From Minisyncoccota bacterium (GTDB taxonomy: Bacteria > Patescibacteriota > Minisyncoccia > Phycocordibacterales > XYD1-FULL-46-19), in the NCBI GenBank assembly GCA_018063065.1, contig JAGORB010000005.1, positions 1-35,164 of the forward strand: DNA of 35,164 bases, read 5' to 3'. The position numbers were made by a program, and so were the translations under genes. Within the stretch, counting starts at the first letter, position 1. Each line of letters begins with the position of its first letter. The notes beneath the pieces are model-generated. The model was not told the origin of the DNA and made no database searches. It saw nothing but the letters and a program-made list of their open reading frames with translations. This document shows, piece after piece, positions 2,139-5,837 of the stretch.

Positions 2139-2211
2139 TGGTCTTCACAGAAGTTGGTTTTAGATATATATTTGATTAAATTAGGCATTAAATCGATAAG
2201 GAGGATGAGGT

Positions 2212-2379
2212 TTGAGTAAATTACAGGAAATTGCCAAAGGACTTAGGTCTTTGCTCGAGGGTCAAAGTACATTTCTTGAAAAAGCTGATCAAGAAAAAGC
2301 GCTAGCGCTTCTTGATCAATTAGATGAAGAGATTGCCAGGCCTGATATGCACATTGCTACTTATTGGGGGGCCCCATAA
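2212..2379 (+). CDS. Small TTG-started ORF (55 aa) upstream of the pyrF/pyrE-like pair
   Basis: The frame starts at TTG 2212 behind a very strong Shine-Dalgarno, AAGGAGG at 2198-2204, 7 nt away, and ends with TAA at 2377-2379. It is missed if only ATG is considered, because the ATG at 2204-2206 reads into a stop after four codons. The product is charged and predicted helical (starts MSKLQEIAKGLRSLLEG, ends HIATYWGAP), with no membrane segment or known motif. A rho-independent terminator begins 23 nt after the stop, so it is either its own transcription unit or a leader peptide for the two genes beyond. A plausible promoter is TTGGTT (2154-2159) with TAAATT 17 bp later. I do not recognise the protein. 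Confidence 0.65.
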   Translation: MSKLQEIAKGLRSLLEGQSTFLEKADQEKALALLDQLDEEIARPDMHIATYWGAP

Positions 2380-2401
2380 TAAACAAATAGGGATTGTAGA
2401 C

Positions 2402-2432
2402 CCCCGGCGACCATGTGGTCGCCGGGGCTTTT
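2402..2432 (+). terminator. Rho-independent terminator or attenuator
   Basis: CCCCGGCGACC (2402-2412) pairs with GGTCGCCGGGG (2417-2427) around a four-base loop, followed by CTTTT. The first ten base pairs are identical to the terminator at 3788. It lies between the 55-aa ORF and the PyrF-like gene. No convincing sigma-70 promoter is visible between it and 2514, so read-through or attenuation is possible. Confidence 0.88.
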
Positions 2433-2513
2433 CATTTGTTTTTGTGGGTGCTAGGGTGGTGGTGGCAATAGCCATTTGACAGAGGAATAAACTAAAACGG
2501 AAGGAGCCTAAAA

Positions 2514-3155
2514 ATGGCTGATGTTAAATCTCGGGTGATGTTGAGGATTGATTCGACTACCAAAAAATGCCCTAACTTTAGGGAAGAGATCGCTATCTTG
2601 AAAAAACAGGTGGACATTGTGCATGTGAAATTAGACCTATTAATTTCACCTTCGTGGTCGCTCCGGCAATTAGCTTTGGAGAAAATGGAGTACAAATTTT
2701 TCTTCGACATTCATCTCAATGACGTCGGGAATACAGTGAACAAAGCACTGGCAGCTCTCAAGGAGACAAAGGCGTGGGGATTTTCGGTAACCTCCTTCTT
2801 GTCTCATCGGGATTGCCAGAATCTAATTGCCGATAAGAGTGAAATTAAGCTCTTCGTTGCTCAATCGGCGGCAAGTTTTGGCTCCAATTTTGGTCGGCAC
2901 ACTGACCTACCTATTGATGGTGTTATTTGTGCGGGATCGGAGTTGGCGGCGGCGCGGCAGGCTTGTAATAAGTTAGTAATAACGGAAGCAAGTTTGCATG
3001 ACACAGGGGATCTCTTCCCGGCGACTTTGATTGGTCGAGGGGCGGACTTCGTCTCCATTGATATGGAGGAGTTTCGTACTAGTCCATCGGGGTCATTTAA
3101 AGAAGCCGCGGCTTTGAACGGGGCGATTGAAGAAGCTTTGGAGTGTAGAGTGTAA
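2514..3155 (+). CDS. Divergent orotidine-5'-phosphate decarboxylase-like TIM-barrel protein with an altered active site
   Basis: This 213-aa protein follows the OMP decarboxylase (PyrF) layout: an opening beta strand with Asp (RVMLRID, about residue 12), a VHVKLDLL strand with the first conserved Lys (about residues 36-43), the core strand FFFDIHLNDVGNTV (about residues 70-83), an ICAGSE motif, and a late GADFVSI strand. In true family members the core reads D-x-K-x-x-D; here it reads DIHLND, so the catalytic Lys is His while both Asp remain. By family knowledge this change should abolish or strongly alter decarboxylation. AAGGAG at 2501-2506 sits 7 nt before the ATG. A PyrE-like gene follows 32 nt downstream. 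Alternatives are another member of the same suprafamily or a non-catalytic ligand-binding derivative. The fold call is moderately sure; the function is unknown. Confidence 0.6.
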   Translation: MADVKSRVMLRIDSTTKKCPNFREEIAILKKQVDIVHVKLDLLISPSWSLRQLALEKMEYKFFFDIHLNDVGNTVNKALAALKETKAWGFSVTSFLSHRDCQNLIADKSEIKLFVAQSAASFGSNFGRHTDLPIDGVICAGSELAAARQACNKLVITEASLHDTGDLFPATLIGRGADFVSIDMEEFRTSPSGSFKEAAALNGAIEEALECRV

Positions 3156-3187
3156 AAGTATAGGACTTTTGCTGAAGGGAGACTTTA

Positions 3188-3769
3188 ATGAACATTCCAA
3201 TAGTGGTAGAGGGTTATAAGACTCGAAGCTTGTTGCAGACACTCGACAATTGCGGGTGCCTCGATCGAAAAACTGGCGGGTTTTGTTTTCCTCGAGCCTG
3301 GCAAAACCCAGATATCTTACGTTACTTTGCGAAGGTGTTGTGGGAGTCTATCTGGCTTGATCGAGAGAGTGAGCCAATCCGATTTCGTTGGGCTGTACCT
3401 GACATGCTGGTGGGAATGCACGAGTGTTCAAACGGGGATGATCTGGTGCCACTTCTGTACCTAATGGGCGATCAGCTTGGCGCTCGGGCAGATGTAAGGA
3501 CGGTATTGGTGAGGCGCAGTCCATCTCGTCGGGTCATTTTGGATCCTGTGCAGTATGATTGGTCGCCAGAGAAGACGGCAGTTATTGTTCAGACTGTTTT
3601 TTGCCTCAAGGATGTTGAAGATCTGACTTTGGCTCTAATGCGTCAGGGTGTAGAGGTTATTGGGGCGGTATGTCTTGTTAATCAAGGTAAATCGATCGAC
3701 TCGGTGACCGAGAACCTACCTCTCCATTGTCTGATAGAAGGGTCCGAGGTGATCGATTTCATCAATTAG
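3188..3769 (+). CDS. Divergent orotate phosphoribosyltransferase-like protein, degenerate PRPP motif
   Basis: This 193-aa protein aligns by eye with PyrE. The N-terminal LLQTLDNCGCLDRKTGGF resembles the early helix and hood of the family. PDMLVGMHECSNGDDLVPLL replaces the conserved glycine-rich substrate segment. VRTVLVRRSPSRRV stands where a flexible Lys/His loop is expected. TAVIVQTVFCLKDVEDLTLAL then GVEVIGAVCLVNQ matches the strand-helix-strand around the PRPP loop, but the canonical acidic pair and Thr-Thr-Gly are gone (about residues 132-145). By family knowledge that makes normal PRPP catalysis unlikely. GAAGGGAGA at 3174-3182 precedes the ATG. It pairs with the PyrF-like gene and is closed by the 3788 terminator. 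The order F-E mimics a pyrimidine operon, but no other pyr gene is nearby. Confidence 0.52.
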   Translation: MNIPIVVEGYKTRSLLQTLDNCGCLDRKTGGFCFPRAWQNPDILRYFAKVLWESIWLDRESEPIRFRWAVPDMLVGMHECSNGDDLVPLLYLMGDQLGARADVRTVLVRRSPSRRVILDPVQYDWSPEKTAVIVQTVFCLKDVEDLTLALMRQGVEVIGAVCLVNQGKSIDSVTENLPLHCLIEGSEVIDFIN

Positions 3770-3787
3770 TTTGCGATTGGATATAAG

Positions 3788-3819
3788 CCCCGGCGACTGT
3801 AAAGTCGCCGGGGTATTTT
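3788..3819 (+). terminator. Rho-independent terminator of the pyrF/pyrE-like unit
   Basis: A perfect 11-bp stem, CCCCGGCGACT (3788-3798) with AGTCGCCGGGG (3803-3813), GTAA loop, then TATTTT. The stem shares its outer ten base pairs with the terminator at 2402. Confidence 0.9.
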
Positions 3820-3860: not shown

Positions 3861-4172
3861 ATGAAGAACAATCCTATTAAGCCATTGGGGGATAGAGTCG
3901 TTCTTATCCCTTTAAGCGAGTCTGAAAAAGCTGGTAAATCTAAGAGCGGAATCATTATCCCTGAGACTATTAATAAAGAGCGCCCCGAGCAAGGTAAGGT
4001 AGTGGCCGTGGGTCCAGGCCGCGTGGGCGACGATAATGAATTAATACCGATGTCGGTGAAGAAGGGTCAAACAGTCATCTTCTCTAAGTACGGTCCTGAC
4101 GAGGTAGAAGTTGAAGGGCAAAAGTATCTCATTGTTTCCGAATCTCAGATATTAGCCGTAATTGAAGATTAA
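3861..4172 (+). CDS. groS: Co-chaperonin GroES
   Basis: This 103-aa protein is the GroES heptamer subunit that caps GroEL. Family landmarks are IKPLGDRVVLIPL near the start, the mobile loop SKSGIIIPETINKERPEQGKV (described by position, about residues 29-48), KKGQTVIFSKYGPDEVE and the terminal strand ILAVIED. Length is normal. The next gene, groEL, starts 3 nt after the stop, the usual operon. Translation starts at ATG 3861 behind a close -10 box with no Shine-Dalgarno. Confidence 0.96.
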   Translation: MKNNPIKPLGDRVVLIPLSESEKAGKSKSGIIIPETINKERPEQGKVVAVGPGRVGDDNELIPMSVKKGQTVIFSKYGPDEVEVEGQKYLIVSESQILAVIED

Positions 4173-4175
4173 TTT

Positions 4176-5837
4176 ATGAGTGCTAAACAAATTTTATTTA
4201 ACGATAAGGCGCGCAAGTCTTTAAAGAAAGGCATTGATAAGTTGGCGGCGGCAGTAAAAATGACCCTGGGTCCCCGCGGCCGAGCAGTGGTAATTGAGAA
4301 GGGGTATGGTGCGCCGCAGATAACTTTAGACGGCGTAACAGTAGCTAAAGAAATTGAACTCTCGGACAAGTTTGAGAATTTGGGCGCGGACCTAATTAAA
4401 CAAGCGGCCGATAAAACTAATGACAAGGTAGGCGATGGCACCACCACCTCCATCATCCTCGCCCAAGCGTTGATTGAAGAGGGCGAGAAGGCGATTGCCG
4501 AGAAGGGCTTCAACGTTATTCATTTAGCCGATGAAATTAAAAAGGAGAGTGAAGTGGTAATTAAAGCGCTTGAAGCCCAAGCGGAAGAGGTGAAAGAGAA
4601 GAAGAAGATTGAAGAGGTGGCTACCCTCTCGGCCAAAGATGCCGCCATTGGTAAATTGATTGGTGAGGTATTTAACAAAGTGGGTAAAGAAGGAGTGATT
4701 GCCATTGAAGACTCTAATACCGTGGAGAGCTCATCGGAGGTAGTGGAGGGTCTACAGTTTGATCGCGGCTACATTGCGCCGTACATGGTAACCGAGGCCG
4801 AGAAGATGGAGGCCTCGTATGAAGAGCCGTACATTTTATTAACCGATAAAAAAATTAGCTCGATTAAAGAAATTTTACCGCTGTTAGAAAAGATGGCCGG
4901 GAGTGGTAAAAAAGATTTAGTCATTATTGCGGAAGATGTAGAGGGCGAGGCTCTGACCACTCTGGTCTTAAATAAAATCCGCGGAGTGTTTAATACACTC
5001 GCCATTAAGGCGCCCGGCTTTGGCGACAAGCGGAAGGAGATGCTGCAGGACTTGGCGATTGTTACCGGTGGGACAGTGATTACGGAAGAATTAGGTTTGA
5101 AGTTGGAGACAACGGAAGTGGCACAACTGGGCCGGGCCCGCCGCGTGATCTCGTCTAAAGATAATACGGTGATTGTGGGTGGTAAGGGTAAGAAGTCTGA
5201 AATTACCGAGCGCGTAAAAGCTCTTAAACAACAAATTGAATCGGCTTCTAATAAATATGATAAAGATCGCTTGCAAGAGCGTTTAGGAAAATTATCAGGT
5301 GGCGTGGCGGTAATTAAAGTGGGCGCTCCCACCGAGAGTGCCCAGAAAGATTTAAAACAAAGAGTAGAAGATGCGGTCTCGGCCACACGCGCCGCGATGG
5401 AGGAGGGCGTGGTGCCCGGCGGTGGCATGGCGTTGTGGAATACTATCCCTACTGACGCGGTAAAAATTAAAAAGGCGGATGCCACTGTAAATGATTATGC
5501 TAAAGAAATTATTAGACTCGTGTCGGCGGCGCCAGTGGAGGCGATTATTGATAACTCTGGCGAGCCGGTAGAAAAGGTGTTGAAGAATCTTCGCGTCGCG
5601 AAGGCCGCCGTGAAGACGGCGGCCGAGAGACGTTGGCTTGGCTTCAATGCTGGGACGAATGAAATTGTGGATCTTAAAAAGGCTGGGATTGTGGATCCAC
5701 TTAAAGTGACTAAAACCGCCTTCACCAACGCCGTCTCCGTGGCCGCCAGTTACTTAACTATTGGCGTGGCCATTACTGACATCCCTAAAAAAGACGAGCC
5801 TCACTCCCATAGCTCTGGCCCAGGTATGGAATTTTAA
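4176..5837 (+). CDS. groL: Chaperonin GroEL
   Basis: This 553-aa protein is the 60-kDa chaperonin, an ATP-driven folding chamber working with GroES. Visible ATPase motifs are VKMTLGPRGRAVVIEK (about residues 25-40), VGDGTTTSIILAQ (about 84-96) and VPGGGMALW near residue 410. The apical domain is intact around residues 190-370. The C-terminus ends in DEPHSHSSGPGMEF and lacks the Gly-Gly-Met repeat tail of many GroELs; that tail is known to be dispensable but affects the cavity. The start ATG at 4176 lies 3 nt after groES and has no Shine-Dalgarno, consistent with translational coupling. There is a long antisense open frame inside it, which I treat as a shadow. Confidence 0.97.
   Translation: MSAKQILFNDKARKSLKKGIDKLAAAVKMTLGPRGRAVVIEKGYGAPQITLDGVTVAKEIELSDKFENLGADLIKQAADKTNDKVGDGTTTSIILAQALIEEGEKAIAEKGFNVIHLADEIKKESEVVIKALEAQAEEVKEKKKIEEVATLSAKDAAIGKLIGEVFNKVGKEGVIAIEDSNTVESSSEVVEGLQFDRGYIAPYMVTEAEKMEASYEEPYILLTDKKISSIKEILPLLEKMAGSGKKDLVIIAEDVEGEALTTLVLNKIRGVFNTLAIKAPGFGDKRKEMLQDLAIVTGGTVITEELGLKLETTEVAQLGRARRVISSKDNTVIVGGKGKKSEITERVKALKQQIESASNKYDKDRLQERLGKLSGGVAVIKVGAPTESAQKDLKQRVEDAVSATRAAMEEGVVPGGGMALWNTIPTDAVKIKKADATVNDYAKEIIRLVSAAPVEAIIDNSGEPVEKVLKNLRVAKAAVKTAAERRWLGFNAGTNEIVDLKKAGIVDPLKVTKTAFTNAVSVAASYLTIGVAITDIPKKDEPHSHSSGPGMEF

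Follow-up and report, generated by a model that had tools for sequence, protein, structure and literature searches.

The DNA analysed here (hereafter the window) is a 35,164-nt stretch, contig C16 of an assembly that comprises 586,525 bases and is 83.7% complete; the genomes of relatives measure 0.4-1.2 Mb. Between the divergently transcribed genes secG and groES, a PyrF-like gene (product P0001) and a PyrE-like gene (product P0002) are enclosed by two intrinsic terminators with the same stem, T1 and T2, and preceded by a 55-aa ORF (Table 1). This arrangement had been described in a previous reading of the sequence only, and all of its elements were found in place.

Table 1. Features of the secG-groES interval (positions within the window).
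Feature	Position	Strand	Remarks
secG	1872-2099	minus	Left flank, divergently transcribed from groES
Sigma-70-like promoter match	2144-2172	+	TTCACA-17-TATATT, 5′ of the 55-aa ORF; 10/12 in a consensus scan whose count is near background, hence weak
55-aa ORF	2212-2379	+	TTG start, with AAGGAGG as Shine-Dalgarno sequence (2199-2205); may encode a short protein or be a leader ORF
Intrinsic terminator T1	2402-2427	+	Stem CCCCGGCGACC, tail CTTTTCATTT
13-mer TGGGTGCTAGGGT	2445-2457	+	Extended -10-like, TG-C-TAGGGT; putative promoter
PyrF-like (P0001), 213 aa	2514-3155	+	OMP decarboxylase homologue; altered catalytic residues
PyrE-like (P0002), 193 aa	3188-3769	+	Orotate phosphoribosyltransferase homologue; PRPP motif altered
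Intrinsic terminator T2	3788-3813	+	10-bp stem as in T1, other loop; stands between the unit and groES
groES	3861-4172	plus	Right flank

Both terminators are strong and share a 10-bp stem (CCCCGGCGAC/GTCGCCGGGG). Chance would give 0.01 matches to this stem with three mismatches or fewer in the window; the whole assembly contains only these two exact copies, for which reason a genome-wide repeat or uptake sequence was rejected. The GC content of the 55-aa ORF at the three codon positions (0.59/0.36/0.30) is coding-like, and no homologue with E < 0.01 was obtained for it. In shuffled sequence, frames of the lengths of PyrF-like and PyrE-like were open in 0 of 5000 trials each. No other real genes of the window are as atypical in codon usage as these two, a feature that fits recent transfer, relaxed selection or unusual evolution. 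At positions 1-80 of the window, the contig opens with GC-rich sequence that gives way sharply to the AT-rich end of a gene, possibly an artefact of the assembly edge.

PyrF-like matches the OMP decarboxylase (OMPDC) family models significantly though weakly (PRK00230, E 2.4e-6; TIGR01740, 8.9e-6; Pfam, 9.6e-4), with scores far below all curated cut-offs (25.5 vs 92.3 bits for TIGR01740, 19.5 vs 27 bits for PF00215). Its nearest PDB sequences are weak matches, every one an OMP decarboxylase. Homology to PyrF, a member of the OMPDC suprafamily, extends across the barrel: a DxHxxD motif sits in the place of DxKxxD, and the DGV(I/V)C and GAD segments come after it. When aligned with 29 homologues from the same order, the catalytic array reads H-D-H-D instead of the canonical K-D-K-D, the motif itself being DIHLND; both catalytic Lys positions are thus occupied by His and both Asp are retained, and a Lys lies two residues past the first position. 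The phosphate-gripper elements PG-R and DQ-R are missing, as is GR, with IDME replacing IGRP, and the gripper segment of this 213-aa protein is shortened to 40 residues, compared with 46-58 in the 29 homologues. Profile matches and alignment agree with the earlier proposal of OMPDC descent together with loss of the catalytic motifs. Structure models built with single-sequence AlphaFold (pLDDT 40 for PyrF-like, 39-40 over the two proteins) were uninformative and did not enter a fold search; homology would imply a TIM barrel for PyrF-like.

PyrE-like gave no match in Pfam, NCBIfam, PHROGs, PADLOC or PDB. When compared by hhalign with an orotate phosphoribosyltransferase (OPRT; PyrE, TIGR00336) alignment built from relatives, it matched over 134 columns with a probability of 85.8% (E 5e-6), far above the maximum of 13.7% reached by about 55 unrelated ORFs, and the best single OPRT scored z = 8 against shuffles. 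Judged by these comparisons, PyrE-like is a very divergent OPRT homologue, seen only at the profile-profile level and located directly 3′ of PyrF-like, as pyrE is in several relatives. By alignment, PyrE-like lacks the PRPP motif with its two acidic residues, canonically (E/D)DVxTTG or EDVxNN and VEDVLTTGGS or AEDVYNNFQN in relatives; IVQTVFCLKD stands in its position. Likewise, VGMHECSNGDD and VRRSPSRR are found where the GxxxGG PPi loop and the Lys-containing flexible loop would be, and the C-terminus is shortened. The descent, the motif loss and the pyrF-pyrE order put forward by the sequence-only reading are all upheld by these results.

That reading had also stated that no other pyrimidine gene is in view. 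This is true of the window, but not of the genome, where genes for CTP synthase and for a divergent dihydroorotate dehydrogenase (DHODH)-like protein are present; no other OMPDC or OPRT was found in its assembled part. Class 2 DHODH homologues that score slightly under the curated cut-off are present in the same genome (L161:7975-8973, contig C21) and in the relative G004 (L162:8046-9074). In both, the active-site Lys of AAGxDKxG (FDKNG) is replaced by Tyr, and both carry a class-1-like NISCPN motif; G088 keeps the Lys. No DHODH match was obtained in four family members with a full-motif or type 2 PyrF (G006, G012, G001 and G011). The co-occurrence of this DHODH-like gene with a degenerate PyrF-like gene, assessed in ten genomes, is suggestive only.

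By GroES, G004 is the closest of the family members compared (72% identity; the next shows 66%). New in this analysis, its secG-groES gap contains an intact and equally degenerate PyrF-like gene together with twin same-stem terminators. The 223-aa product (P0005, L126:3742-4413) is an OMPDC homologue (PRK13813, 2.9e-8; hhalign, 97%) whose catalytic positions read A-L-N-D, three of the four being lost, with GEEI in place of GRPI, neither PG-R nor DQ-R, and a gripper segment of 37 residues. P0005 was missed by the first single-sequence search because of its divergence from P0001: the two share 23% identity (BLASTP E 8e-4), a score that 0 of 500 shuffles attained. A tree pairs them with support of 96/86, on two long branches whose joining is perhaps inflated; when either was removed, the remaining one had no supported placement, and their sisterhood therefore rests mainly on synteny. 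As the syntenic gene is itself degenerate rather than a full-motif enzyme, the earlier view that more than recent decay is involved is strengthened.

The two loci differ in other respects. The G004 gap reads PyrF-like, 51-aa ORF, T1, 81-aa ORF, T2, with terminators at L126:4643-4671 and 5000-5030 that are identical in stem and loop and flank the 81-aa ORF. No PyrE-like gene was found in this gap, and the co-retention of both genes on which the sequence-only reading had relied is not borne out. Conservation of the 55-aa ORF is likewise unsupported: it shows no recognisable kinship to the small ORFs of the G004 locus (for the 81-aa ORF, 41 of 500 shuffles scored as high). In about 490 kb of scanned sequence, no loci but these two had twin terminators with the same stem. 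The other family members checked mostly have secG right next to groES; in G011 the linkage with secG is missing. In G007 the gap (L132:3759-4964) is occupied by a 401-aa PurM-like gene, related to AIR synthase and just under the Pfam cut-off, with CCCCGGC-stem hairpins beside it.

Single-sequence searches of genome, viral, phage and plasmid collections yielded no close relatives of P0001 or P0002, and when a profile of P0001 and P0005 was run over 397 genomes of the order, everything that it recovered apart from the two proteins themselves was an ordinary OMPDC. Weak PyrF matches in relatives were considered as degenerate kin and discarded as ordinary type 2 OMPDCs (CAYKPN...DAKRADIGNTN); a phage or defence origin of the pair is unsupported by PHROGs or PADLOC. 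PyrF homologues have a patchy distribution across 148 relatives; many of them neighbour a PyrE, on one side or the other, with pyrF before pyrE in several. Two OMPDC homologues of the same order lack the catalytic Lys, one directly 3′ of the CTP synthase gene pyrG (G097, L037:4924-5718; DIGGCD) and the other in G062 (L038:5026-5778; DVGLCE). The PyrE partners of full-motif PyrF proteins (L026, L028, L030, L033) have the unusual PRPP motif EDVxNN, DDLLNN in one of them, and fused UMP synthases with OPRT and OMPDC matches occur in G090 (L099:262-1593, 443 aa) and G147 (L100:3736-5049, 437 aa).

Free drift of the 639-bp frame was simulated. At 0.5 substitutions per site the frame was open in 0.05% of trials, and at 23% amino-acid identity in 0 of 2000, even without indels. 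That both degenerate frames are still open at the same syntenic site thus argues for selection on PyrF-like; the argument does not extend to PyrE-like because the latter has no known relative. Two genera have kept a degenerate OMPDC, PyrF-like, at a single chromosomal site, and it is probably under selection for something besides UMP synthesis. The best-supported reading, to which we give somewhat better than even chances, is that of a pseudoenzyme with a non-canonical role. The unit would be a short self-contained gene set between secG and groES, descended from a pyrF-pyrE operon, evolving fast and no longer capable of UMP synthesis by the known mechanism. The OMPDC barrel of PyrF-like would have been kept for a non-catalytic role, as a partner or regulatory protein, and PyrE-like would be its companion, retained in this genome and absent from the G004 gap. 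The suggestion that the pair senses or binds pyrimidine-like ligands is unsupported, because the phosphate- and PRPP-binding elements are precisely what was lost.

It could be argued instead that the genes are pseudogenes in progress, the remains of a transferred or inherited pyrFE operon that is unused and drifting and has stayed in frame by luck. The atypical codon usage, the very long branches, the loss of PyrE-like from the G004 gap and the patchiness of pyrF and pyrE across the family all point in this direction, but the three reading frames, of 213, 193 and 223 aa, are still open in spite of the divergence between P0001 and P0005, which drift rarely allows, and start sites, Shine-Dalgarno sequences and terminators are intact. 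We regard this explanation as unlikely. A second alternative is that both are enzymes of altered chemistry, in which the barrel and the phosphoribosyltransferase (PRT) fold act on another substrate that carries no phosphate and might be supplied by the divergent DHODH-like enzyme. The pattern of two His and two conserved Asp in PyrF-like would suit such a change, as would the Lys-to-Tyr DHODH-like gene found in both genomes with a degenerate PyrF-like gene and not in the four others. Against this, P0005 retains one of the four catalytic positions and the active sites of the two proteins differ, PyrE-like is not conserved and the DHODH association comes from the ten genomes mentioned; altered chemistry appears decidedly improbable.

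With respect to transcription, TGGGTGCTAGGGT, which lies 3′ of T1 in the window, is also present in G004 (L126:4437-4449), 3′ of the PyrF-like gene, and at both loci ATGGCTGAT follows 58-69 nt past it. Taken alone, the recurrence of TGGGTGCTAGGGT is not significant, as 22 of 300 shuffles did equally well; with ATGGCTGAT collinear at both loci, homology of the two sites becomes likelier. We doubt that the 55-aa ORF and T1 form an attenuator of the pair comparable to the pyrBI leader of E. coli, a proposal with little probability on our estimate. The layout (promoter, short ORF, terminator, pyr-type genes) speaks for it and the leader folds more stably than shuffles do (z -3.8), a difference that comes largely from the terminator itself. 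The stop codon of the ORF, however, lies 23 nt 5′ of the hairpin, where a ribosome would hardly reach the stem, and the order of elements in G004 is a different one. The promoter-like 13-mer lies after T1, which favours a start there over attenuation. Transcription is predicted to begin just 3′ of T1, or else to begin 5′ of the 55-aa ORF and read through T1; T2 would end it and may insulate groES.

That the pair still makes UMP through an unusual working active site is very improbable: no canonical PyrE or PyrF was found elsewhere in the assembled part of the genome (16% of the whole is unassembled), CTP synthase and a DHODH-like protein are encoded and P0001 keeps both Asp of the OMPDC motif, but the pair lacks the catalytic Lys, the phosphate gripper, GR, the PRPP motif and the PPi loop, and the G004 protein, which departs from the motif even more, is without a PyrE partner in its gap. 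Returning to the pseudoenzyme reading, some parallels can be drawn. PyrR and PurR are PRT-fold regulators, in which the fold serves regulation instead of, or alongside, catalysis; as far as is known both retain the PRPP motif as a sensor, whereas PyrE-like has lost it. In Trypanosoma brucei, an isoform of APRT is reported to be a catalytically inactive phosphoribosyltransferase paralogue (PMC8836349), and thereby a retained inactive relative of an enzyme of nucleotide metabolism. An active sister copy exists in that genome, whereas none was found for the pair studied here.

Few enzymes are as proficient or as thoroughly studied as OMP decarboxylase. Literature searches found no paper on retained OMPDC pseudoenzymes, and nothing on degenerate PyrE or PyrF in genomes such as this one. 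It is conceivable, at somewhat less than even chances, that in this small-genome lineage a UMP-synthesis pair has turned into a new, fast-evolving module at the secG-groES junction, either non-catalytic or of new chemistry and possibly linked to the DHODH-like gene. Genes of this kind should not be counted as evidence of pyrimidine prototrophy, and the syntenic occurrence of an inactive-looking OMPDC in two genera with reduced genomes would mean that even this barrel can outlast its own chemistry.
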